The notes below the pieces were generated by a model, which was not told the origin of the DNA, searched no databases, and saw nothing but the letters and a program-made list of their open reading frames with translations. The translations under genes and the position numbers were made by a program. A stretch of 46,162 bases of DNA from a virus. Where the stretch lies: IMG/VR virus record IMGVR_UViG_3300020034_000030, positions 1 to 46,162 of that record; one strand, given 5' to 3'. Positions 1,926 through 44,895 of this stretch are shown one piece after another (the first letter of the stretch is position 1; every line of letters starts with the position of its first letter).

Positions 1926-2055
1926 AACCGCTTGACTCTTCGCTGTCCAAGGGGCAGAGTCGCTCTTGTCAGGCCGGACAGGGACGCAAGCACCGGGCAA
2001 CCGAGAGTCCCGGACCGCATGATCGCCGACTGAGGCCATGCGGAGCACTGTGCGC

Positions 2056-2083
2056 TTGACAGACGCCCTGCATCTGGTAGGGT
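2056..2083 (+). promoter_or_regulatory. Rightward sigma70-type promoter P1
   Basis: TTGACA at 2056-2061, a 16-nt spacer, then TAGGGT at 2078-2083. The -35 is consensus and the -10 is the common GC-rich actinobacterial variant. It reads toward the early genes. Confidence 0.65.
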
Positions 2084-2179
2084 GAGCACTACCAACTCAA
2101 CAGCGGCACGGCAAGCCACCCATGGCGCGCAGTGCTCGGACCACCCTCGCGGGTCGGACTGCCGGGCACCCACCGCTTT

Positions 2180-2193
2180 GTGACACAGGTCAC
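2180..2193. promoter_or_regulatory. Dyad operator-like motif, copy 2
   Basis: GTGACACAGGTCAC, a perfect 5-bp inverted repeat around a 4-nt centre. It lies 12 nt upstream of the -35 of promoter P2 and shares 12 of 14 bases with the copy at 46065. Confidence 0.5.
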
Positions 2194-2205
2194 GACGACT
2201 GGGGC

Positions 2206-2235
2206 TTGACAGGCCGCTGGGCAGTACGGTAGGTT
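2206..2235 (+). promoter_or_regulatory. Rightward sigma70-type promoter P2
   Basis: TTGACA at 2206-2211, an 18-nt spacer, then TAGGTT at 2230-2235. Its -35 sits in the same CTTGACA context as P1, giving tandem early promoters. Transcription would start near 2243, leaving a leader of about 340 nt before the first gene. Confidence 0.65.
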
Positions 2236-2584
2236 GAAACCAGACAGACCAGGGCCGGGAAGCAAAGGGCGAAAGTCCCGAGTACCCGCGACACCCGCAT
2301 GAACGGCACGACCCAACTACATAAGAGCCGCCCCTCTCTACGAACAAGGGGTGCTCACCTCGGTTTAGCTAAGGTTGGACGACCCTGACCGGGGGGAGCG
2401 GGAGTAGAAACTCGATCCTCCCGATATAAACACCCGCATCACGGGATTGTTGTGAAACAAACCTGCGGAAGGGAATCCAGAAAGGACCTCTCTCGGTGAC
2501 TTGAACCCGATGATTGTTGGTGGAGTCGGTTTCCATCCTGGATACGTAAAAGGCTTGAAAAGGTTTCAACGAAAGAGGCTTGGT

Positions 2585-2845
2585 ATGGGCAACATTGCAC
2601 TCAGTAAAGCTTTCGCGGAGCTGAAGACCGAGAACGAATACGTACAGGACTTTGGTACGTTTTTCGTCTGCGTCAACAAGCTCGGGGGCGGCACGCTAGG
2701 AAAAAGCTATGACGGCGGCTGGTGGGTCGTGCTTATGGACTCGGATGCACTGGTCAGGATCGAGCAGTTCCCGGTGAACACGGGCATGCCGCACACCCAC
2801 GAATGGGTGGCCGAGTGGGTCGCAGAAGACAAGGACTGGTCATGA
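2585..2845 (+). CDS. Hypothetical 86-aa early protein
   Basis: First rightward gene. The start MGNIALSKAF is chosen because AAAGAGG lies 7 nt upstream; a longer in-frame start at 2501 has no ribosome site. The sequence is alpha/beta-like (GTFFVCVNKL, GGWWVVLMDS) and ends in an acidic tail, WVAEDKDWS. The stop overlaps the next start as ATGA. No family is recognised. As the first early gene it may be a host-takeover protein, which is inference from position. Confidence 0.75.
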   Translation: MGNIALSKAFAELKTENEYVQDFGTFFVCVNKLGGGTLGKSYDGGWWVVLMDSDALVRIEQFPVNTGMPHTHEWVAEWVAEDKDWS

Positions 2846-3033
2846 ACGCTCGGATGGAAGAGCTTTGGATCGGTCGCATCCTTCAGCATTGGATGACGGG
2901 CGAATACGCCCGCGTCGAGTCGTGGCCGAACAAGTCTGAGGTCCGGGTCCTGGTGCAGACCGGCGACCATGCTGGTCAGACACTAGACATGGACGCTCGT
3001 GCAATGCAGTACGACTGGGACGCGATCAACTAG
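2842..3033 (+). CDS. Hypothetical 63-aa early protein
   Basis: Starts MNARMEELWI by ATGA overlap with the preceding gene, so it is probably translationally coupled. It contains a small beta-rich part (EVRVLVQTGDHAGQTLDMDA). No motif or family is recognised. Confidence 0.7.
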   Translation: MNARMEELWIGRILQHWMTGEYARVESWPNKSEVRVLVQTGDHAGQTLDMDARAMQYDWDAIN

Positions 3034-3049
3034 CAGGAAGGCTTGGACC

Positions 3050-3187
3050 ATGGACCCAAGGGCGACTGAGCAGCGCATTATCGAGCTGCTGGCCACCGGC
3101 AATACCGACGACTTGACTGAGGCTCGCTATCTGCGAGCCGAGCTGGATCGCTGGCGCTCCCGGGGAGGATTCAAACCTGTAGGCTAG
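3050..3187 (+). CDS. Hypothetical 45-aa helical protein
   Basis: Starts MDPRATEQRI after the repeated element GGAAGGCTTGGACC, which supplies the ribosome site. It reads as a two-helix peptide: IIELLATGNTDD then ARYLRAELDRWRSR. The stop is followed directly by the first covarying hairpin repeat. The function is unknown. Confidence 0.65.
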   Translation: MDPRATEQRIIELLATGNTDDLTEARYLRAELDRWRSRGGFKPVG

Positions 3188-3255
3188 AGGCTTGGGGCGG
3201 GACCGGCTTAATCTCCGGTCCCCACCCTAGATTCTGGACAACGGGAAGGCTTGAT
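3188..3255 (+). repeat. Start-associated hairpin repeat, copy A
   Basis: AGGCTTGGGG, then an 8-bp stem (3199-3206 with 3215-3222, 8-nt loop), then a CCCTAGATTCTGG-like segment and GGGAAGGCTTGAT, ending at the ATG of the next gene. Copies B to E keep the architecture while the stem bases change in a paired way. Confidence 0.7.
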
Positions 3256-3462
3256 ATGGCTAAGGTAAAAGAGCGATGGGACGGCTCGCGGGAGATCGTG
3301 CTCAGCACCCAAGAGGCTCGGGGTTTGCGCTCGCTCTTGGGTGCTGGGGTGGCGGTGCAGTCCGTACAGGAGCTGGGCTTGTGGCAGCTGATCGAACTGT
3401 TGGTGTCGGAGGGCGTCGAGCGAACCCACGAGTTTGCAGTCATCGCAGAAGTGCGCTACTAG
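3256..3462 (+). CDS. Hypothetical 68-aa protein
   Basis: Starts MAKVKERWDG with GGGAAGG 7 nt upstream at the end of hairpin repeat A. It is mainly helical (EARGLRSLLGAG, LWQLIELLVSEGVE). It is flanked by hairpin repeats on both sides, so it may be translated or expressed as an independent unit. No family is recognised. Confidence 0.7.
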   Translation: MAKVKERWDGSREIVLSTQEARGLRSLLGAGVAVQSVQELGLWQLIELLVSEGVERTHEFAVIAEVRY

Positions 3463-3539
3463 CCCAGAAGGCTTGAGGCGAGACCGGCCGAAACTCCGGT
3501 CTCCCACTCTGGAAATCTGGTCTCACGAGAGGTTTGACT
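3463..3539 (+). repeat. Start-associated hairpin repeat, copy B
   Basis: Stem GAGACCGG (3480-3487) with CCGGTCTC (3496-3503), 8-nt loop. Relative to copy A the third stem pair changes from G-C to A-T on both arms, a compensatory difference. The unit ends with CGAGAGGTTTGACT at the ATG at 3540. Confidence 0.7.
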
Positions 3540-3932
3540 ATGAGCGAGACGGCGGAATACCCGAGCATGCGCATCGTTCCGATGTGGCGGGTGTTGGAAG
3601 GCGAGTCCGTGGACTCCCCGAGCTACTCGGACGACGGAGATGATGGTTACACGGTCGCTGAGATCCTCGAATTCAAGCGCGAGGATGGTGGCTACGAGGG
3701 TCTTCGCCAGTCGATCGAGACGCACGGCCTGGCACAAGGCTACGAGCCGGTGTTCGACGGCGTCACGGTCCGGGAGGGTCACCACCGTATCGCAGCGCTG
3801 GTCGACCTAGGCGCGAAGTGGTGTCCGGTAAACGACGGCCGGGACCCGTCTACGCCCTGGAAAGCCCCTGACGGCACGATGCCCGGCATGTGTGCGCACT
3901 GCGAAGCCGATGAGTGTGACTGTATGTGGTGA
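3540..3932 (+). CDS. ParB-like nuclease domain protein
   Basis: 130 aa. FDGVTVREGHHRIAALVDLG (72-91) carries the G-H-H-R box of the ParB/sulfiredoxin superfamily (80-83), used in nucleotide binding or DNA hydrolysis. The preceding helix (YEGLRQSIETHGL) fits the usual I-x-S-I-x-x-x-G segment. The C-terminus ends in a cysteine cluster (CAHCEADECDC, 118-128), possibly a metal site. There is no partner ParA, so plasmid-type partition is unlikely; a DNA-modifying or regulatory role is possible. The ATG is preferred over TTG at 3534 because CGAGAGG is correctly spaced from it. Confidence 0.7.
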   Translation: MSETAEYPSMRIVPMWRVLEGESVDSPSYSDDGDDGYTVAEILEFKREDGGYEGLRQSIETHGLAQGYEPVFDGVTVREGHHRIAALVDLGAKWCPVNDGRDPSTPWKAPDGTMPGMCAHCEADECDCMW

Positions 3933-4003
3933 TCGGAAGGCTTGGGGCGGGACTGGACGTAATGCCAGTCCTCACCCTGGAATTCCGAACGAAAGGCTCT
4001 GAC
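3933..4003 (+). repeat. Start-associated hairpin repeat, copy C
   Basis: Stem GGGACTGG (3949-3956) with CCAGTCCT (3965-3972), 8-nt loop. The sixth pair is T-A where copies A and B have C-G, again changed on both arms. The unit ends in CGAAAGGCTCTGAC at the ATG at 4004. Confidence 0.7.
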
Positions 4004-4126
4004 ATGGCGCGAGGCAAGACGTACGCTCGACAAGGTGGGCGGGTCACGGTCCGCAAGGCCGGAGGACATCTCATCACGCTAGACTGCAAGGGCAACATCA
4101 TTTCCGTCAAGACCCGGAAGGCTTGA
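4004..4126 (+). CDS. Small basic 40-aa protein
   Basis: MARGKTYARQ start, with GAAAGG from hairpin repeat C upstream. It is very basic, with a short beta-hairpin pattern (GRVTVRKAGGHLITLDCKG). It might bind nucleic acid, judging by charge only. The stop codon lies inside an AAGGCTTGA element that also serves as ribosome site for the next gene. Confidence 0.6.
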   Translation: MARGKTYARQGGRVTVRKAGGHLITLDCKGNIISVKTRKA

Positions 4127-4129
4127 GAA

Positions 4130-4525
4130 ATGGCCGGACCGCGCACGCTAGAACTTCTCGAACGCAACGGTGGTTTCACGATCAACCACCTTGGCCTGGA
4201 AGTAACCAAGGGCTTTGCGGTGTCCACCGACCCCCAGCTAACCCGGGTGATCAAAGACATCGTGACGGCGAGCGAGCTTTTCCAGTATGTCAGTGACAAC
4301 TTTGATGTACTGGTCGACCCGTACAACGGCAAGGTGTTCGGCGGCTGGCTTGACACCCAAACCGGCTGGACTTACCTCGACGTCATCACTGTGGTGACCG
4401 ATCGCGAAGAGTCTTTGCGCCTCGCCTCGATGCACGGCGAGATTGCCGTCTACGATCTGGGCACACACGAAGAGATCCGGGTCAATTACCCGAAGTCTGA
4501 TTTCGTACTGGTTAATGAGGTCTGA
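4130..4525 (+). CDS. Hypothetical 131-aa protein
   Basis: Starts MAGPRTLELL, with GGAAGG about 9 nt upstream overlapping the previous gene end. It has an N-terminal helix, then alternating strands and helices (GGFTINHLG, WTYLDVITVVTD, EIAVYDLGTHEEI). The globular composition suggests a folded cytoplasmic protein. No recognisable motif. It is followed by hairpin repeat D. Confidence 0.7.
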   Translation: MAGPRTLELLERNGGFTINHLGLEVTKGFAVSTDPQLTRVIKDIVTASELFQYVSDNFDVLVDPYNGKVFGGWLDTQTGWTYLDVITVVTDREESLRLASMHGEIAVYDLGTHEEIRVNYPKSDFVLVNEV

Positions 4526-4590
4526 AGGTCTTGGACTGGACACCGCATGTCGGTGTCCTTTCCCTGGATAATCAGACGAGAGGTATGATC
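4526..4590 (+). repeat. Start-associated hairpin repeat, copy D
   Basis: CTTGGACT, then an 8-bp stem (4538-4545 with 4551-4558, 5-nt loop), then a 22-nt block at 4562-4583 that is identical in copy E and ends in the ribosome site CGAGAGG. Confidence 0.75.
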
Positions 4591-4827
4591 ATGAGCGATA
4601 TCCGACCCTTGAATGTCATCGCGGCGGAGATTAACGACGATTGGGGCAAGCCCTACTTCGGTGCGGTGCCATACATCCAAGCCATGGGCTACCTGGTTGA
4701 AGTCACCGACTACTACGGGGAGGATCTGGGCCGGCACATTGTCGCCTACTTCCTGTCGAACGCGAGCACATGGCGCGGACCCGTCGCCCGTCGAGTCAAG
4801 GCGGAATTGAAGTCCATCGTTCGCTGA
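4591..4827 (+). CDS. Hypothetical 78-aa protein
   Basis: Starts MSDIRPLNVI, 7 nt after CGAGAGG of hairpin repeat D; an in-frame ATG at 4585 is too close to the ribosome site. Contains AAEINDDWGKPYFGAVPYIQAM and GEDLGRHIVAYFLSN. The pattern of short helices around aromatic residues is seen in other small actinophage early proteins, but no named family is recognised. Confidence 0.7.
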   Translation: MSDIRPLNVIAAEINDDWGKPYFGAVPYIQAMGYLVEVTDYYGEDLGRHIVAYFLSNASTWRGPVARRVKAELKSIVR

Positions 4828-4894
4828 CGATCTTGGACTGAGTACCAACCCGTGTGGTACTCTCTCCCTGGATAATCAGACGAGAGGCAAGGCC
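4828..4894 (+). repeat. Start-associated hairpin repeat, copy E
   Basis: CTTGGACT, an 8-bp stem (4840-4847 with 4855-4862, 7-nt loop) of completely different sequence from copy D, then the same 22-nt block (4866-4887). The stem is kept while its bases are not, so pairing rather than sequence seems to be selected. Confidence 0.75.
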
Positions 4895-5470
4895 GTGAAG
4901 CTACTTCAGAAGAACATCAACGCCACGTACCGGGCGGCCACACCGGCCGAGCGAGCCGAGGGAAAGTCTTGGTACTCGACCGCAAGGTCGGTGGCCGAGT
5001 CCCTGGACCCTCAAGACCCCGCGCGCGCCGCTGCGGTTATCGCTGTGCTGTCTCCGCAAGTACACTGGGACCGCAATGTCAAGATGGCCGCAGACGCGTA
5101 CGCAGGCCGAGAAATCAAGGGCCTGGGTGTGAACGCGGCTAAGGCTCGACGCATCGTCGCGGGTGCGGACCCAGACGACGTGGTGTCCGGCCCGAAGGTA
5201 CGCGCGTTCTGGCACTCAATCGTCAACCCGAGCGACCCGCGATGCATCGTGGTCGACCGTCACGCGTTTGACGTCGCGGCTGGCACGGTGATGGACACCC
5301 ACGAGCGGGATGCCGTGCTTCAGCAGAAAGGCGTTTACGACTTCGTGTGCAAGCTGTACGTGGACGCAGCTCGGACGCTGTCCAAGGAATTCGGGCCCAT
5401 CACGCCCGTTGAGGTCCAGGCCACAACGTGGGTCGCCTGGCGGCGCATGAAGAAAGCTTTCGGGCTGTAA
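4895..5470 (+). CDS. Conserved-type phage protein, glycosylase-like architecture
   Basis: 191 aa, GTG start 7 nt after CGAGAGG. It is all-helical in appearance, with AAVIAVLSPQVHWDRNV, a GPKVRAFWHSIVNP segment, CIVVDRHAFDVAAG and a C-terminal TPVEVQATTWVAWRR. The order of helices followed by an Asp-containing VDRHA turn recalls helix-hairpin-helix DNA glycosylases, and proteins of this layout are common in actinophages. The enzymatic idea is weak, because no catalytic Lys-Asp pair is obvious. It ends the block of hairpin-associated early genes. Confidence 0.6.
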   Translation: MKLLQKNINATYRAATPAERAEGKSWYSTARSVAESLDPQDPARAAAVIAVLSPQVHWDRNVKMAADAYAGREIKGLGVNAAKARRIVAGADPDDVVSGPKVRAFWHSIVNPSDPRCIVVDRHAFDVAAGTVMDTHERDAVLQQKGVYDFVCKLYVDAARTLSKEFGPITPVEVQATTWVAWRRMKKAFGL

Positions 5471-5510
5471 CATCAGCTCGCCCGGTCCGAACCAACCCGA
5501 GAGAGGTATC

Positions 5511-5729
5511 ATGACTGTAAAGCCTTCCGACCTGAAGATCAATGCCCCGAAGGTCGACCCTGTCAAGCGCAGGGGCCGTACCCACGGACTTGGGGAGCGC
5601 GACCCCAAGACCTTGCCCGATGGCACCCACCGCCGCGAGTCGTTCGAGGAGAACGAGGCGGGTACGAAGCGCTGGGCCAAGCTCGGAAAGCTCTCGCGCG
5701 GAATCTCGTGGACTGGTAGCAAGTACTAA
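5511..5729 (+). CDS. Hypothetical 72-aa basic protein
   Basis: Starts MTVKPSDLKI after GAGAGAGG. It is rich in Lys, Arg and Gly with little hydrophobic core (VKRRGRTHGLGERD), so it may be disordered and bind nucleic acid. Its end lies 9 nt before a tRNA-like element. No family is recognised. Confidence 0.65.
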   Translation: MTVKPSDLKINAPKVDPVKRRGRTHGLGERDPKTLPDGTHRRESFEENEAGTKRWAKLGKLSRGISWTGSKY

Positions 5730-5737
5730 CAGACCGG

Positions 5738-5803
5738 GCGTGTTGGTAACGGTGAATGTGGTATGCTGCCACTAAGCCCAGGGGTTCGATTCCCCTGACG
5801 TCC
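5738..5803 (+). tRNA. tRNA-like element, 3' half recognisable
   Basis: AGGGGTTCGATTCCCCT at 5779-5795 is a perfect T-arm, followed by GACGTCCA as a 3' acceptor strand. Upstream, GTGG-TATGCTG-CCAC forms an anticodon-like hairpin, but the nucleotide before the anticodon is A instead of T. No normal D-arm can be drawn; GGGCGT could pair with six acceptor bases, but spacing is then wrong. It may be a decayed tRNA or a captured 3' tRNA fragment (attP-like, although no integrase is present). Confidence 0.4.
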
Positions 5804-5840
5804 ACTCGAAAGCCTTGACATCAATGAAAGGGTTGGCACA

Positions 5841-6029
5841 GTGAGCAACACCAAGACCATCTCCGTGTACTCGGTCAAGAACACCACGACGGGTCGGTTG
5901 ATTTACGTGAAGGACCCGGACCGCAAGCGCGCTGAGCGCCTGTTGGTGTCGGCCCTGAACAACCGCCCAGGGTTCGACTACAAGATCACCCGGGGCTCGA
6001 TCCCCAACCCGGAGTACGTGCCCGCGTGA
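5841..6029 (+). CDS. Hypothetical 62-aa protein
   Basis: GTG start with GAAAGG 9 nt upstream, preceded by TCGAAAGCCTTGACA, a 15-nt element that recurs before the gene at 6542. It contains VYSVKNTTTGRLIYVKDPDRKRAERLL, a small beta-beta-alpha arrangement. The stop overlaps the next start as GTGA. The function is unknown. Confidence 0.65.
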   Translation: MSNTKTISVYSVKNTTTGRLIYVKDPDRKRAERLLVSALNNRPGFDYKITRGSIPNPEYVPA

Positions 6030-6541: not shown

Positions 6542-7012
6542 ATGGATCAAAACCGACAGGGCGGCGCGCGCTACAAGGGCGTCACTTCGTACCTGGAACC
6601 GATCATCACGAATCGAGCCGCAACGTTGTCTCGGGCGTACGCCACGCTAGTGGACAAGGACTTTGATACCTTGGTGGGCAGAGGTCTGTCCGGTGCGCTC
6701 ATCATCCCCGAGCTGGCCAGCATACTCGGCAAGCGCTGGGCTGTCGTGCGCAAGCCAGGCGACTCCAATCACCGGGAGTACGCGGTCGAGGGCACCATCG
6801 GAAAGCGTTGGATCTTCGTGGATGACGTGATTTCCACGGGTGCCACGTACCGGGACGTTCACAGGCAGGTCGACAACGCGTACGTGGCGTACCTTGAGCG
6901 CCGGGAAGAGTTTAACGACCAGCCGGCCGTCCTCGACGCGGGCGTCATTGAGCACGTCGGCTACTACCTCTACTACCACAACGTTTGGAGTTCTGATAAC
7001 AATGGCTGGTGA
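6542..7012 (+). CDS. Phosphoribosyltransferase-like protein
   Basis: 156 aa. WIFVDDVISTGATYRDV (90-106) is the PRPP-binding loop of type I phosphoribosyltransferases, with the two acidic residues D94 and D95 and the STGAT phosphate loop. GRGLSGALIIPELAS (47-61) fits the upstream PPi-binding strand-loop. These enzymes transfer ribose-5-phosphate from PRPP to a base; the substrate cannot be told here. The start is 6 nt after GAGAGAGG. It is probably part of phage nucleotide metabolism and overlaps the next gene by 11 nt. Confidence 0.8.
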   Translation: MDQNRQGGARYKGVTSYLEPIITNRAATLSRAYATLVDKDFDTLVGRGLSGALIIPELASILGKRWAVVRKPGDSNHREYAVEGTIGKRWIFVDDVISTGATYRDVHRQVDNAYVAYLERREEFNDQPAVLDAGVIEHVGYYLYYHNVWSSDNNGW

Positions 7013-7649: not shown

Positions 7650-8111
7650 ATGTTCGGACCGAGCGTCAAGAAGGTCAACCGAGGCGGGCGAATCGTGTAC
7701 GTCGTCCAGTGCTCAGAAGCCCGATGCAAGCATGAAGCACAAGGGACCACGAAGTCCGAGGCCCTACGCGAACTGAAGAAGCACGATCGCAGCAGCCATC
7801 AGCGGGACCGCGAGCGCGCCAAGCAGGTCGAGCGCAAGGACAAGGACCTCAAGGCCAAGCAGGCGAAAGCTTTGGCTCGGGAGGAAGCACGGGCCAAGGT
7901 CGACAAGGCTCGCGCGGCGGCCCAGGAAAAGGCCGACAAGGCTCGATCTCAAGAGGGCTGGAACACCGGCCGGTCTGCGTCCTCGGGTCTGAAGACCAAG
8001 GGTATCCCGGGCGTTCCCGACGGCCAGAAGGTCACCGGCAAGGTCTACGACGACAAGGGCAAGGTTGTGCCTTACGACGTGCTGAAGAAGCACGTGCAGG
8101 GCTGGGACTAA
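7650..8111 (+). CDS. Zinc-finger-like protein with long charged helix
   Basis: 153 aa. The N-terminal 45 residues hold CSEARCKH followed by KSEALRELKKHDRSSH, a C-x4-C...H-x4-H arrangement shared with the proteins at 8115 and 8269. Residues about 48-105 form a very Lys/Arg/Glu/Ala-rich coiled coil. The C-terminal part has GIPGVPDGQKVTGKVYDDKGKVV, which looks like a small beta-domain. GGGAGG lies just upstream of the ATG. A nucleic-acid-binding scaffold is a plausible role, inferred from composition. Confidence 0.7.
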   Translation: MFGPSVKKVNRGGRIVYVVQCSEARCKHEAQGTTKSEALRELKKHDRSSHQRDRERAKQVERKDKDLKAKQAKALAREEARAKVDKARAAAQEKADKARSQEGWNTGRSASSGLKTKGIPGVPDGQKVTGKVYDDKGKVVPYDVLKKHVQGWD

Positions 8112-10256: not shown

Positions 10257-10461
10257 AGCGAGCGATTTCCGACTTTTCGCATCCGTCAAGGGCGGCCAAG
10301 AAGCTCTCGGCGAGTTCGTCTGGGTGGCAACCCGGGGCGACGTCATAGCCGTCCTGGTAAAACCGTGGAATGCCTGGAGTGATGTCGGACAGCTAGTACC
10401 CAGCGCCTACAGCCTGGAAGACCTGGAGAACAAGGAATCTTTCGTGGAGGTGAAGCTGTGA
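10249..10461 (+). CDS. Hypothetical 70-aa protein
   Basis: GGGAGGAGAAG ribosome site lies inside the preceding gene. Starts MTEASDFRLF; beta-rich (GEFVWVATRGDVIAVLVKPW) with a C-terminal acidic helix. It is directly coupled to the RNA ligase gene (overlap of 4 nt). Function unknown. Confidence 0.7.
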   Translation: MTEASDFRLFASVKGGQEALGEFVWVATRGDVIAVLVKPWNAWSDVGQLVPSAYSLEDLENKESFVEVKL

Positions 10462-11162
10462 GTGGCCTCACGTTCGAGGGCTGGCCCAAGACGCCACGCC
10501 TGAGCGCCAAGGGCTCGATGGTGGTCACGGAGAAGATCGACGGGACGAATGCCTGCGTCATCGTCCAGCGCTTCGGGGAGGGCCGGTCGCTGATTGATCT
10601 CGACCTGTCCGACCCTCAGTCCCACAACGGTATCTGCTTTGTGTTCGAGGCGGCAGGCCCAGACGAAGAAGACCGGGTGTGGCTGGTCGGCGCGCAATCC
10701 CGCAACAAGCTGATCTTCCCGGGCAAGCACTACGACAACGCGGGCTTCGCGGGCTGGGTGCTGGGCTACGCGCTTGAGTTGGTCAGCCTGCTTGGTCCGG
10801 GCCGGCACTTCGGTGAATGGTGGGGCCAAGGAATACAGCGAGGCTACGGGATGGAGTGCAAGAAGTTCTCGCTGTTCGACGCGCATCGCTGGGCCCGGGT
10901 TGCTATCGAGCGTGGTGACTGGAACTTTCGGGCTGACAGGATCGGCATGACCACGGTTCCTACCCTGCACATTGGGCAGTGGTCCGACAGCACAGTCGAG
11001 GATTGCCTCGGTGTTCTGCGGAGACACGGCTCGATGGCCGCCTTGCAGTTTGGGGTGGTCGGGCAGAAGGCTGAAGGCGTGGTCGTTCGGCACCGAGCGC
11101 TGGGTGGCAACCTGAAAGCATTCGTGGATAACGACGACACGCCCAAGGGCCAGCAGGTATGA
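10458..11162 (+). CDS. RNA ligase, Rnl2-type
   Basis: 234 aa. Nucleotidyltransferase motif I TEKIDGT places the adenylated lysine at K26. FGEWWGQGIQ (motif III/IIIa region), AEGVVVR (motif IV, E206) and LKAF (motif V, K220) follow in order. The length fits a compact RNA_ligase-family enzyme without a long C-terminal domain. It would seal 3'-OH and 5'-phosphate RNA ends using ATP. With the second ligase at 22423 and the kinase-phosphatase at 23641 it suggests an RNA-repair module. GTG start after GGAGGTGAAG. Confidence 0.85.
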   Translation: MSGLTFEGWPKTPRLSAKGSMVVTEKIDGTNACVIVQRFGEGRSLIDLDLSDPQSHNGICFVFEAAGPDEEDRVWLVGAQSRNKLIFPGKHYDNAGFAGWVLGYALELVSLLGPGRHFGEWWGQGIQRGYGMECKKFSLFDAHRWARVAIERGDWNFRADRIGMTTVPTLHIGQWSDSTVEDCLGVLRRHGSMAALQFGVVGQKAEGVVVRHRALGGNLKAFVDNDDTPKGQQV

Positions 11163-22383: not shown

Positions 22384-22388
22384 GTGGC

Positions 22389-22404
22389 GGGGCCTTCGGG
22401 CCCC
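22389..22404 (+). promoter_or_regulatory. UUCG tetraloop hairpin
   Basis: GGGGCC-TTCG-GGCCCC, a very stable 6-bp stem capped by a TTCG loop, between the stop at 22383 and the RNA ligase ribosome site. There is no T-run, so it is more likely an mRNA stability or processing element than a full terminator. Confidence 0.5.
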
Positions 22405-22422
22405 TCCCTCGGAGAGGGAACC

Positions 22423-23523
22423 ATGAACCTGTATGACTTGATGACGTTCGAGGAGCTGGAAGAGGCGCTTCGCGAGAAGCTGGTCCGGATCCAGTATCAC
22501 CCGACGCGCGAGCTGAGCATTCTGAACTACACCGAAAAAGCGCAGTTCTCCAAGACCTGGAACAACGTCACCCTCAACTGCCGGGGTTTGATCATCGACA
22601 CGCGGACCAAGAACATCGTGGCCCGGCCTTATCCCAAGTTCTTCAACTGGGGCGAGCAAGCCGAGATCAGCCTCGAAGAGCCGGTGGTCGTCACCGACAA
22701 GCTCGACGGATCGCTCGGCATCATGTACGGCGGCGGAGCTCTCGGCCCGCAGATCGCAACCCGAGGCTCGTTTACCAGCGACCAGGCAATTTACGCCGAC
22801 GCGATCCTTCAGGACAAGTACCCAGACTTCACGCCGCGCGCCGGCTGGACCTTGCTGTTCGAGATCATTTATCCGTCCAACCGGATCGTGGTCGACTACA
22901 AGGGCCTGGACGACCTAGTACTGCTCGGTGCCATTGACATCCAGAGCGGGGCCATCATGGGCCCTGAGATGGTCTCAGACTGGCCGGGACCGCGAACTGA
23001 GGTGTTCCCCTACAAGACCTTCGGAGAGGCGCTCAGCGCGCCGCCCAGGCCCGGTAAAGAAGGTCTGGTGGTTAGGTCGCTCATGGACGACCACATGGTC
23101 AAGATCAAGCAGGACGACTATGTGCAGCTCCACAAGATCGTCACCGGTCTGAACGAGAGGGCCGTATGGGAGCGGGTAAAGGCCAACCCGGGAGACCGGG
23201 ACAAGATCCTGGAAGGCATCCCCGACGAGCTGCACAACTGGGTGAGCGTGGTGGCCACGGACCTGCTGGACGAGATGGGCGGCCTGGTTGACCAGGTAAT
23301 CTACGCCTGGCAGGAAATCATAGGGCTCGAAGGCGTCTCCCCCCGAGACCTCCCGCGAGCAGAGTTTGCCCGTCGCGCCAAGGTGTTCAAGCCCTGGGTC
23401 AGAACCGTTCTGTTCTCGTGGCTGGATGACAAGCACGACCGAGGACACGAGTTCCTGTGGAAGCAGATCAAGCCTGCTAGCGAGAAAGGCCCGTACAGTG
23501 GCAGCAACCCGAAGGTGTCCTGA
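22423..23523 (+). CDS. RNA ligase, T4 Rnl1-type
   Basis: 366 aa. Motif I VTDKLDGSLG gives the adenylated lysine K93. LLFEIIYPSNRIVVDY is the motif III region, EGLVVR is motif IV and VKIKQDDY motif V. NCRGLIIDT and ARPYPKFFNWGE upstream are typical of RNA_lig_T4_1. T4 Rnl1 reseals tRNA cut by the host anticodon nuclease PrrC; the adjoining end-healing enzyme at 23641 supports the same job. GGAGAGGGAA ribosome site. Confidence 0.9.
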   Translation: MNLYDLMTFEELEEALREKLVRIQYHPTRELSILNYTEKAQFSKTWNNVTLNCRGLIIDTRTKNIVARPYPKFFNWGEQAEISLEEPVVVTDKLDGSLGIMYGGGALGPQIATRGSFTSDQAIYADAILQDKYPDFTPRAGWTLLFEIIYPSNRIVVDYKGLDDLVLLGAIDIQSGAIMGPEMVSDWPGPRTEVFPYKTFGEALSAPPRPGKEGLVVRSLMDDHMVKIKQDDYVQLHKIVTGLNERAVWERVKANPGDRDKILEGIPDELHNWVSVVATDLLDEMGGLVDQVIYAWQEIIGLEGVSPRDLPRAEFARRAKVFKPWVRTVLFSWLDDKHDRGHEFLWKQIKPASEKGPYSGSNPKVS

Positions 23524-23644
23524 GTGCGGGTTCGTGGTACGCTTAGTCATGAGAACCAAGGGCCACTGGATCTACCCGATTCATTGGGCCGACACCCTAC
23601 ACACCAAGCGATGCGTCTACTCGTACAAGGAGGTAAGTCCGTGA
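23498..23644 (+). CDS. Zinc-ribbon microprotein, 48 aa
   Basis: GTG start with GAAAGG 8 nt upstream, inside the last 26 nt of the RNA ligase gene. CPECGFVV and a later H-x(4)-C (HTKRCVY) make a one-zinc fold. The stop overlaps the kinase start (GTGA), so it sits between ligase and kinase-phosphatase and may belong to the repair module. Role unknown. Confidence 0.6.
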   Translation: MAATRRCPECGFVVRLVMRTKGHWIYPIHWADTLHTKRCVYSYKEVSP

Positions 23645-24570
23645 GCGGTTTTTTGTTGCACATCTATCGAGGCATCCAGGGCTCGGGCAAGACCACGCTG
23701 GCCCTGGAGAACCAGGCTATCGACGGCGGAAGGCTGGTCGGCCGAGACCATCTCCGAAGGCTTCTCGGGGTCCAGGGCCTGGGCACTCGCAAGCAGGAGG
23801 CGGAGGTCACCGACCTACAGGGTCGGTTGATCGCAGAGGGTCTGCGAGCCGGGCAGGCCGTCCATGTAGACGACATGAACCTCAAGGCCACGTACGTCCG
23901 TCGCCTGATGGGTATCGCCGAGTACTACAGCGCGGGGGTCACGATCCACGACCTGACGAGCGTGCCGCTGGAGACCTGCTTGCAAAGGAACCGCCTGCGC
24001 TCGGGCCTAGGCGCTGGGTTCGTGAACGAAGGCGTCATCCTGTCGAACTGGGAGAGCTTCATCAAGCCCACCAAAGGCCAGGGCCTGCCTGTCCCCAGCT
24101 CCGCACTGTACGACCCCAAGTTGATCCCGGCCGAGCCGTACATCCCCGACCCCTTGAAGCCAAGGGCTATCCTGGTCGACCTCGACGGCACGGCTGCGCT
24201 GATGAACGGCCGAGGCCCGCACGACTACCACCGAGTGTCCGAAGACCTGCCGAATCAGGCGGTCAAGACCTTGGTGTGGGTCTGGATGAGCCGGGGCTAC
24301 GACGTCGTGTATCTCTCGGGTCGTCCTGACTCGTGCAGGGACGACACCGTGGCCTGGCTGACTCAGAACTTTTACGTCCGAGGCGCTGCGCTACACATGC
24401 GTCGGACTGGAGACCACCGGCCGGACTTCATGGTCAAGCGAGAGCTGTTCGACAAGCACGTCCGGAACCAGTACAACGTGGTGTTCGCCCTGGACGATCG
24501 TGACCAGGTGGTCCGGATGTGGCGGGATCTCGGACTCAGTGTCTTCCAGGTCAACGAGGGGAACTTCTGA
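23641..24570 (+). CDS. Polynucleotide kinase-phosphatase
   Basis: 309 aa, two domains as in T4 Pnkp. The 5'-kinase has P-loop GIQGSGKTTL (11-20) and VHVDDMNL. The C-terminal 3'-phosphatase is HAD type: LVDLDGTAAL (D180, D182), YLSGRPDS, and ALDDRDQVV. It removes 2',3'-cyclic or 3'-phosphate ends and phosphorylates 5'-OH ends, preparing cleaved RNA for the ligase encoded just upstream. The GTG start overlaps the previous stop. Confidence 0.92.
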   Translation: MSGFLLHIYRGIQGSGKTTLALENQAIDGGRLVGRDHLRRLLGVQGLGTRKQEAEVTDLQGRLIAEGLRAGQAVHVDDMNLKATYVRRLMGIAEYYSAGVTIHDLTSVPLETCLQRNRLRSGLGAGFVNEGVILSNWESFIKPTKGQGLPVPSSALYDPKLIPAEPYIPDPLKPRAILVDLDGTAALMNGRGPHDYHRVSEDLPNQAVKTLVWVWMSRGYDVVYLSGRPDSCRDDTVAWLTQNFYVRGAALHMRRTGDHRPDFMVKRELFDKHVRNQYNVVFALDDRDQVVRMWRDLGLSVFQVNEGNF

Positions 24571-44219: not shown

Positions 44220-44241
44220 TGGATGAGTGTACCACGGGTTG

Positions 44242-44317
44242 TAGACCCGGAAGGATTTGAACCTTCGACCCGCGCATTAAGAGTGCGCTGCTCTGGACCA
44301 GACTGAGCTACGGATCC
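44242..44317 (-). tRNA. tRNA-Lys (anticodon CTT)
   Basis: 76 nt. Acceptor GGATCCG with CGGGTCT (two wobble pairs), D-arm with GTAGCTCAG...GGTCCAGAGC, anticodon arm GCGCA-CTCTTAA-TGCGC, T-arm GAAGGTTCAAATCCTTC. No encoded CCA. AAG is a common lysine codon in GC-rich hosts, so it may boost translation or replace a cleaved host tRNA. Confidence 0.92.
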
Positions 44318-44320
44318 AAA

Positions 44321-44377
44321 GGGAGCTGGCTGCTTCGGGATTACGGCTGCACGCCCACCTCAGCCCTTCCAGCTCCC
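44321..44377 (-). ncRNA. Structured hairpin between tRNA-Lys and a small gene
   Basis: GGGAGCTGG (44321-44329) and CCAGCTCCC (44369-44377) pair perfectly over 9 bp. On the minus strand a second hairpin, GGCTG with CAGCC, lies inside, so the folded element is about 57 nt. It lacks a TTCGA T-loop, so it is not a tRNA. It could be a small RNA or a processing signal for the tRNA transcript. Confidence 0.4.
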
Positions 44378-44404
44378 GGCGACCTGACTAGTACAGGCCA
44401 CGTA

Positions 44405-44581
44405 TCATGCGCGCGGGTACAAGCCGAAGCGCTGCAACGCCCTGAAGTACCAGCGCGTGAGCTTGAAGCCCAGGCTGAAGCGCAGGATCTCAGTCCTTGC
44501 GCCGTGCGCGTTCTTGTCGTGCTCGGTCTGAGTGGCGATCTCTCGCGCGTTGACCTTGACGTCGTTCCAGTTCGTGCTCAT
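44405..44581 (-). CDS. Hypothetical 58-aa basic protein
   Basis: MSTNWNDVKVNAREIATQTEHDKN start with GAGAGG upstream. ILRFSLGFKLTRWYFRALQRFGLYPRA is a basic, aromatic amphipathic helix that could lie on a membrane or on RNA. It lies between tRNA-Asp and tRNA-Lys genes. No family recognised. Confidence 0.6.
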   Translation of the reverse strand: MSTNWNDVKVNAREIATQTEHDKNAHGARTEILRFSLGFKLTRWYFRALQRFGLYPRA

Positions 44582-44613
44582 TGTGATCCTCTCATCACTG
44601 TGTCGTGTACGCG

Positions 44614-44686
44614 CGCGGGTGAAGGGACTCGAACCCTCAACGCACGGCTCGACAAGCCGTTGCTCTACCAATTGAGCTACACCCGC
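44614..44686 (-). tRNA. tRNA-Asp (anticodon GTC)
   Basis: 73 nt cloverleaf. Acceptor GCGGGTG/CACCCGC perfect, D-arm with GTAGCTCAATTGGTAGAGC, anticodon arm ACGGC-TTGTCGA-GCCGT, T-arm GAGGGTTCGAGTCCCTT. Discriminator G, as normal for Asp. No encoded CCA. Confidence 0.95.
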
Positions 44687-44745
44687 AGGTTCGAACAAGC
44701 TAGCAAGGAGACCTAACCGTGAAGCCAGCTTCGCTCCTCGCCGCG

Positions 44746-44810
44746 AGGTGAGCCAGGGAATCGAACCCTGCTAGCGGGGTTATGAGCCCCGCGCTACGCC
44801 TGTACCCACC
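44746..44810 (-). tRNA. tRNA-Met-like (anticodon CAT) with shortened D-arm
   Basis: 65 nt. Acceptor GGTGGGT with GCTCACC (two wobble pairs), anticodon arm CGGGG-CTCATAA-CCCCG, T-arm CAGGGTTCGATTCCCTG. Only 12 nt lie between acceptor and anticodon stems where about 19 are usual, so the D-arm is reduced. CAT could be Met, or Ile if modified at C34. Its function is less certain than for the Asp and Lys tRNAs. Confidence 0.7.
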
Positions 44811-44825
44811 CTCGGTTACTTTCAG

Positions 44826-44895
44826 TCGGCTTGCCAGGAGTCGAACCTGGACTCGGCGTCCCATGACACCAGTGCTTCCATTACACCACCAGCCG
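44826..44895 (-). tRNA. tRNA-like gene with irregular anticodon loop
   Basis: 70 nt. Acceptor CGGCTGG with CAAGCCG (six of seven pairs), 3-bp D-stem GTG-TAATGGAAG-CAC, perfect T-arm CCAGGTTCGACTCCTGG. The anticodon stem can pair in two registers, leaving a loop of 6 (CATGGG) or 8 (TCATGGGA) nt in place of 7. Anticodon CAT or TGG (Pro) is therefore unclear. First tRNA after the proposed promoter at 44976-45004. Confidence 0.65.

Follow-up and report, generated by a model that had tools for sequence, protein, structure and literature searches.

What do the regularly built spacers between the small early genes of this phage do? The record is a virus contig of 46,162 bp from an uncultured actinobacterial phage, and the whole of it is the window of this analysis. 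Its terminase shares 62-64% identity with the terminases of the Rhodococcus phages RGL3 and RER2 and their cluster CA relatives, and the closest match found to its DNA polymerase is that of the Mycobacterium abscessus phage phiGD24-3 (63% identity). A series of small plus-strand genes occupies 2.4-6 kb, close to the left end of the window; we call them early because of this position and by analogy with the CA phages. A search against phage records returned no DNA-level relative of the region, near or distant. In this report, we propose, with a probability of roughly one half, that five of its spacers, A-E (3184-4880), are structured RNA processing sites in the early transcript, which would be cut between genes, most likely by the host RNase III.

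In the predicted fold, each of these spacers is one long irregular hairpin that runs from the upstream stop codon to just 5' of the next Shine-Dalgarno (SD) sequence (Table 1). The hairpins are about 55-60 nt long and are predicted to contain some 18-22 bp, interrupted by small, mostly symmetric internal loops. From the outside inward, the plan consists of an outer helix of 4-6 bp, a 2x2 loop (3x3 in B), 2-4 bp, a 1x1 or 1x2 mismatch, 3 bp, another 2x2 loop (2x3 in B), an 8-bp apical stem, and a terminal loop of 5-8 nt. This single-hairpin fold emerges for every spacer once the sequence is extended a few bases in the 5' direction. The CTTGG and CCCTGGA blocks are then each other's pairing partners across the 1x1 or 1x2 mismatch, and the outer helix joins the stop-codon region to the bases just 5' of the SD (A, CTAGA/TCTGG; B, CCAGA/TCTGG; C, TCGGAA/TTCCGA; D, GTCTGA/TCAGAC; E, CTGA/TCAG). 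The stop codon lies within or directly beside this helix in all five copies, and 0-6 nt separate the 3' strand of the helix from the SD; the slot that the elements fill begins at the stop codon and leaves 7-20 nt to the start. Another short repeat, (G)GAAGGCTTGR, lies immediately before several start codons (window 2578, 3036, 3244, and 4116); it also opens elements A-C and resembles a start-associated sequence.

Table 1. Predicted hairpin elements, Shine-Dalgarno regions, and downstream genes (positions in the window).
Feature	Positions	Strand	Details	Basis
Element A	3184-3237	+	outer helix 3184-3188/3233-3237; apical stem 3199-3206/3215-3222; between ORF ending 3187 and ORF starting 3256	
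Element B	3464-3520	+	outer helix 3464-3468/3516-3520; apical stem 3480-3487/3496-3503; between ORF ending 3462 and ORF starting 3540	
Element C	3933-3988	+	outer helix 3933-3938/3983-3988; apical stem 3949-3956/3965-3972; between ORF ending 3932 and ORF starting 4004	
Element D	4520-4577	+	outer helix 4520-4525/4572-4577, 5' strand with upstream UGA stop; apical stem 4538-4545/4551-4558; between ORF ending 4525 and ORF starting 4591	
Element E	4823-4880	+	outer helix 4824-4827/4876-4879, 5' strand with upstream UGA stop; apical stem 4840-4847/4855-4862; between ORF ending 4827 and GTG start 4895	
SD region after A	3243-3249	+	GGGAAGG	sequence
SD region after B	3525-3532	+	ACGAGAGG	sequence
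SD region after C	3989-3996	+	ACGAAAGG	sequence
SD region abutting D	4576-4583	+	ACGAGAGG	sequence
SD region abutting E	4880-4887	+	ACGAGAGG	sequence
Small ORF 3' of A	3256-3462	+	68 aa, no family	
ORF 3' of B	3540-3932	+	130 aa, PHROG "DNA binding protein" (E 2e-6)	
Small ORF 3' of C	4004-4126	+	40 aa	
ORF 3' of D	4591-4827	+	78 aa, phrog_13953	
DUF7178 protein gene 3' of E	4895-5470	+	191 aa, GTG start 4895	

An RNA structure for A-E is strongly supported by comparison of the modelled copies. Over the five copies, pairing holds in 93 of 94 pair cells (98.9%, versus 78% in shuffles), and neither this value nor the covariation score of 0.72 (0.30 in shuffles) was reached by any shuffle. Double-sided changes affect 13 of 20 pairs, as compared with 5.6 in shuffles, and none of 500 shuffles attained 13. 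When the structure was slid along the sequence, only 30-54% of positions paired. The cleanest case is that of D and E, in which the flanks are identical and four stem pairs differ, all four with compensation. The five-copy alignment was padded by hand; A-C and D-E nonetheless align without reference to structure. A covariance model built from the five copies (R1) has as its significant matches in the window exactly A-E. Further, the CU/GG step contains U-G in four of the five copies on the transcribed strand; the other strand would show A-C mismatches at this step, and the coding-strand RNA is thus the likely selected molecule. Judged by folding energy, C, D, and E reach significance (z -3.4 to -4.6), and A and B are borderline (z -1.7 and -2.0); the case for the elements therefore rests on covariation and recurrence, not on energy. 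We gave no weight to stem-swap permutations on the folded hairpins as a sign of constraint: by construction, every copy is 100% paired with its own strands.

These results fit the preliminary description, which spoke of covarying start-associated hairpins. The five spacers are where it had put them, and their common plan exceeds chance in the shuffles, the slid controls, and the covariance model. It was also correct in assigning them an 8-bp apical stem (present in all five), a G-C to A-T change between A and B (which we see both in the apical and in the 3-bp lower stem), a C-G to T-A change in C, and an identical 22-nt block in D and E, CCCTGGATAATCAGACGAGAGG. The consensus blocks that it quoted hold overall, but A has CCCTAGA and GGGAAGG in place of CCCTGGA and CGARAGG, and B has CTTGA and CTCTGGA. 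Its apical stems stand, but most of the hairpin had been missed, namely the CTTGG/CCCTGGA pairing and the outer helix. As to interpretation, its suggestion of a control of mRNA cleavage is consistent with our findings, but its comparison with the extended start-associated sequences (ESAS) of cluster K mycobacteriophages does not extend to membership in that group.

Like the window elements, ESAS are inverted repeats that lie 5' of some non-structural genes and adjoin the start. Pope et al. (2011; PMC3203893) state that RNA pairing finds no support in the arms of ESAS, and later work located SigA-like promoters inside them (PMC11373665). We re-read two ESAS of phage TM4 and found near-identical arms without covariation. 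The arms of the 17-bp inverted repeat of ESAS are conserved in sequence between copies, whereas the window stems differ with compensation. The 13-bp start-associated sequence (SAS), GGGATAGGAGCCC, is absent from the five window spacers, in which the SD regions read ACGARAGG or GGGAAGG. Finally, ESAS contain SigA-like -35/-10 elements, whereas no sigma-70 promoter site was predicted within 2000-6000 of the window. Conserved arms, an adjacent SAS, and an internal promoter are thus all lacking, and the window elements are not ESAS. A looser version, in which they would be ESAS-type DNA elements, that is, inverted-repeat operators or promoters 5' of the early genes, accords with their position and general look; the free variation of the stem sequences with pairing kept, together with the promoter result and the TM4 arms, makes it highly improbable, even though hairpins of the CA phages contain the cluster CA stoperator consensus. 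Such stoperators are directional DNA sites of 13-14 bp (PMC13313380), not covarying hairpins, but they overlap with some of the CA-phage hairpins: the published consensus, TGTCTATTGTCAAG (PMC13313380), occurs inside several covarying ones (early spacers of L003 and L021-L023). A given CA stretch may therefore serve both as DNA operator and as RNA structure.

Intrinsic termination does not describe A-E. None has a GC hairpin followed by a T-tract, terminator prediction listed nothing at the element stems, and the sequence after each stem runs into the SD. Short upstream ORFs starting in the hairpin loop were also rejected, as an ATG is found in C and D only. Stable hairpins after stop codons, with no terminator, could be stability devices, 5' or 3' barriers that shield mRNA segments against RNase E/J or exonucleases; cleavage, if any, would then occur elsewhere. 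We deem this quite improbable, because it leaves unexplained the conserved internal loops, the helix that reaches the SD, and the replacement by ribozymes described below.

The recurrence of such hairpins in other phages is the second pillar of the argument. Scans of viral contigs with single proteins turned up either no relative or a single remote one; alignment-based scans found relatives, and that anchored on the DUF7178 gene downstream of element E, our syntenic anchor, returned 80 contigs. A bridging fold is frequent in shuffles of a single GC-rich spacer (p ~0.25-0.3 each), so only repetition and covariation count as strong. In L026, a related metagenomic phage, 13 of 14 early spacers are bridged, as compared with 4.1 expected from shuffles. 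Contig L002 has hairpins before three genes (3/3 bridged versus 0.9 expected), and in two of them the outer helix GTTTCTA/TAGAAAC has the stop codon inside. The Streptomyces phage Dagobah has six of eight early spacers bridged (1.7 expected), and one of its elements has the dot-bracket structure of element C, save for a longer apical stem. Phage phiGD24-3 showed no excess of hairpins (2/9 versus 1.7 expected). In L044, three near-identical copies of one spacer hairpin precede different genes (2727, 3235, and 5080), which suggests recent duplication or exchange.

In the Rhodococcus cluster CA phages, hairpins are kept at orthologous spacers. RGL3 and CosmicSans differ by compensatory changes (e.g., GAGCCTTG/CAAGGCTC to GAGACTTG/CAAGTCTC), and at some same-place spacers their stems are completely different. 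By the automatic criterion, three of six RGL3 spacers are bridged versus 1.3 expected. A further model (R2), trained on elements of the window and L026 and on one from Dagobah, picks up another Dagobah element that lay outside its training set (E 0.0017); the stretch concerned, being nearly palindromic, scores on the opposite strand as well. A cross-phage alignment placed by hand from each copy's own fold has 190 of 191 pairings, a figure that this placement biases upward. R1 alone gives weak matches in L026 and L044 (E 0.07-9) and fails to recognize the elements of L002, the CA phages, and Dagobah; homology of the core at the sequence level is therefore unproven across phages. A pattern search of viral contigs for the exact core yielded six matches, none like a hairpin spacer and most of them variants of one coding-like stretch. 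Rfam contains no family of such hairpins, and we found no published description of these elements in the open-access literature.

The preliminary description had also raised the recruitment of a phage factor, for which the tests run provided no specific support. On such a reading, an RNA-binding protein of the phage would bind the elements and thereby activate or repress the translation of each early gene. The conservation of the CUUGG...CCCUGGA core in the window while the helices vary, and the proximity of the elements to the SD, would suit such a protein. We hold this explanation to be rather unlikely, since the core differs in L026, the CA phages, and L002 though the architecture persists, and no candidate binder was found.

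The most telling comparison comes from relatives in which the slot is filled by a ribozyme. At the Rfam threshold, 22 type II hammerheads (RF02276) were found: five in the cultured Streptomyces phage Caelum, six in L119 (a Lentzea sp. NEAU-D7 locus), three in L028, one in L053, and seven in L123 (Streptomyces sp. NRRL F-5123). Until its spacers were recognized as hammerheads, Caelum had the appearance of a negative control. The carriers share the DUF7178 neighbor gene, and the L119 protein is the closest found to that of the window (62% identity). They are without window-type hairpins, yet their spacers are equally regular. For most hammerheads, the upstream ORF stops 0-21 nt before and the next start follows about 12-25 nt after; a few were unassigned by a simple ORF test. 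The series lie between small genes (L119:3848-8475, L015:1398-6971, L123:2303-8296, L028:1859-3286, and L053:5025-5086). In L119, further copies are visible by eye under the Rfam threshold (~3542, 5234, and 5905). Such series thus occur in actinobacterial phages or prophages, including a cultured phage and a Lentzea genome. The window elements have in common with them the slot between small early genes, an approximate length (about 65 nt), and the DUF7178 gene. They differ in that the hammerhead core (CUGAUGA...GAAA, three helices) has no Rfam match in the window, where the elements fold as single hairpins. According to the proposal of Perreault et al. (2011; PMC3088659), such series in prophages divide long phage transcripts into mRNAs the length of an operon or a gene.

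The simplest reading of this slot, which hammerheads occupy in the relatives, is that it is the place of early mRNA cutting. A double-strand-specific nuclease would be the likeliest agent, since the window elements have no ribozyme core and it is shape, not sequence, that is conserved. A new class of self-cleaving ribozyme would also account for a slot used by hammerheads in phages and prophages with the same neighboring gene. We regard this as having very little chance of being correct, however, as the elements are plain irregular hairpins with no pseudoknot or junction, and their core, unlike that of known ribozymes, is not conserved between phages.

The reading that we favor, processing by a double-strand-specific endonuclease, would work as follows. 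The early genes would be transcribed as one polycistronic RNA, in which each spacer would fold into its irregular hairpin. The nuclease, most likely the host RNase III, would cut this hairpin and thereby release short monocistronic mRNAs with the SD intact. In related phages, self-cleaving type II hammerheads appear to perform this task in that slot. What selection keeps in the window elements is the shape of the predicted hairpin rather than the sequences of its stems. The role would be that of the RNase III sites between the early genes of T7, a phage whose early region is cut by RNase III. Those sites are likewise irregular hairpins between consecutive early genes, extend approximately from the stop codon to the vicinity of the next start, and are repeated within one early operon; in our own test, stop-to-SD hairpins appeared in two of four T7 early spacers (L014). 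As in T7, the window elements are intergenic irregular hairpins of about two helical turns between consecutive, presumably co-transcribed, early genes. They differ from the T7 sites in sequence and loop layout, and cleavage at them is something that we infer.

The processing model thus builds on a predicted structure, its covariation, its recurrence, and a slot common with hammerheads; that neither a sigma-70 promoter nor a terminator was predicted at the stems also speaks for it. Against it, a slot common with ribozymes does not prove a common function, and the CUUGG/CCCUGGA core in the window is more conserved than RNase III needs, which may reflect common descent. Another possibility is that the fold is a bridge for translational coupling, setting the stop codon beside the downstream SD so that terminating ribosomes re-initiate without cleavage. 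The outer helix at the stop codon, with its 3' strand so near the SD in every copy, has just this geometry, and the same is seen in L026, L002, the CA phages, and Dagobah. Nonetheless, self-cleaving ribozymes in the relatives' slot would sever rather than bridge, and plain gene overlap is a cheaper means of coupling; we therefore judge this explanation unlikely.

If processing is correct, actinobacterial phages repeatedly separate the small genes of early operons at the RNA level, and they do so with two interchangeable devices in one slot, a structure-conserved hairpin or a self-cleaving ribozyme. It would also assign a role to short covarying spacers, which readily escape notice, and provide a context for asking why prophages carry hammerhead series. 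Only tentatively would we go further and suggest that these phages use a new family of structured RNAs interchangeably with hammerheads for early mRNA cuts, possibly including an undescribed form of self-cleavage. These notions would be testable in culturable phages, namely those of cluster CA on R. erythropolis and Dagobah on S. coelicolor.

Other RNA-related features of the window are recorded here in their own right. It encodes an RNA repair set of two RNA ligases (RNA_ligase; T4 Rnl1-like) and a polynucleotide kinase/phosphatase (HAD_PNKP), at 10458-11162, 22384-23523, and 23524-24570. On the minus strand, 44241-44895 holds tRNA-Lys, tRNA-Asp, and a third tRNA with a two-base anticodon. 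Between early genes, at about 5740-5805, there is a tRNA-like 3' half (GGTTCGATTCCCCTGACGTCCACT and similar) that is not called as a tRNA; such halves are also found between early genes in L026 (~7930-8000) and L044 (~6720-6780).
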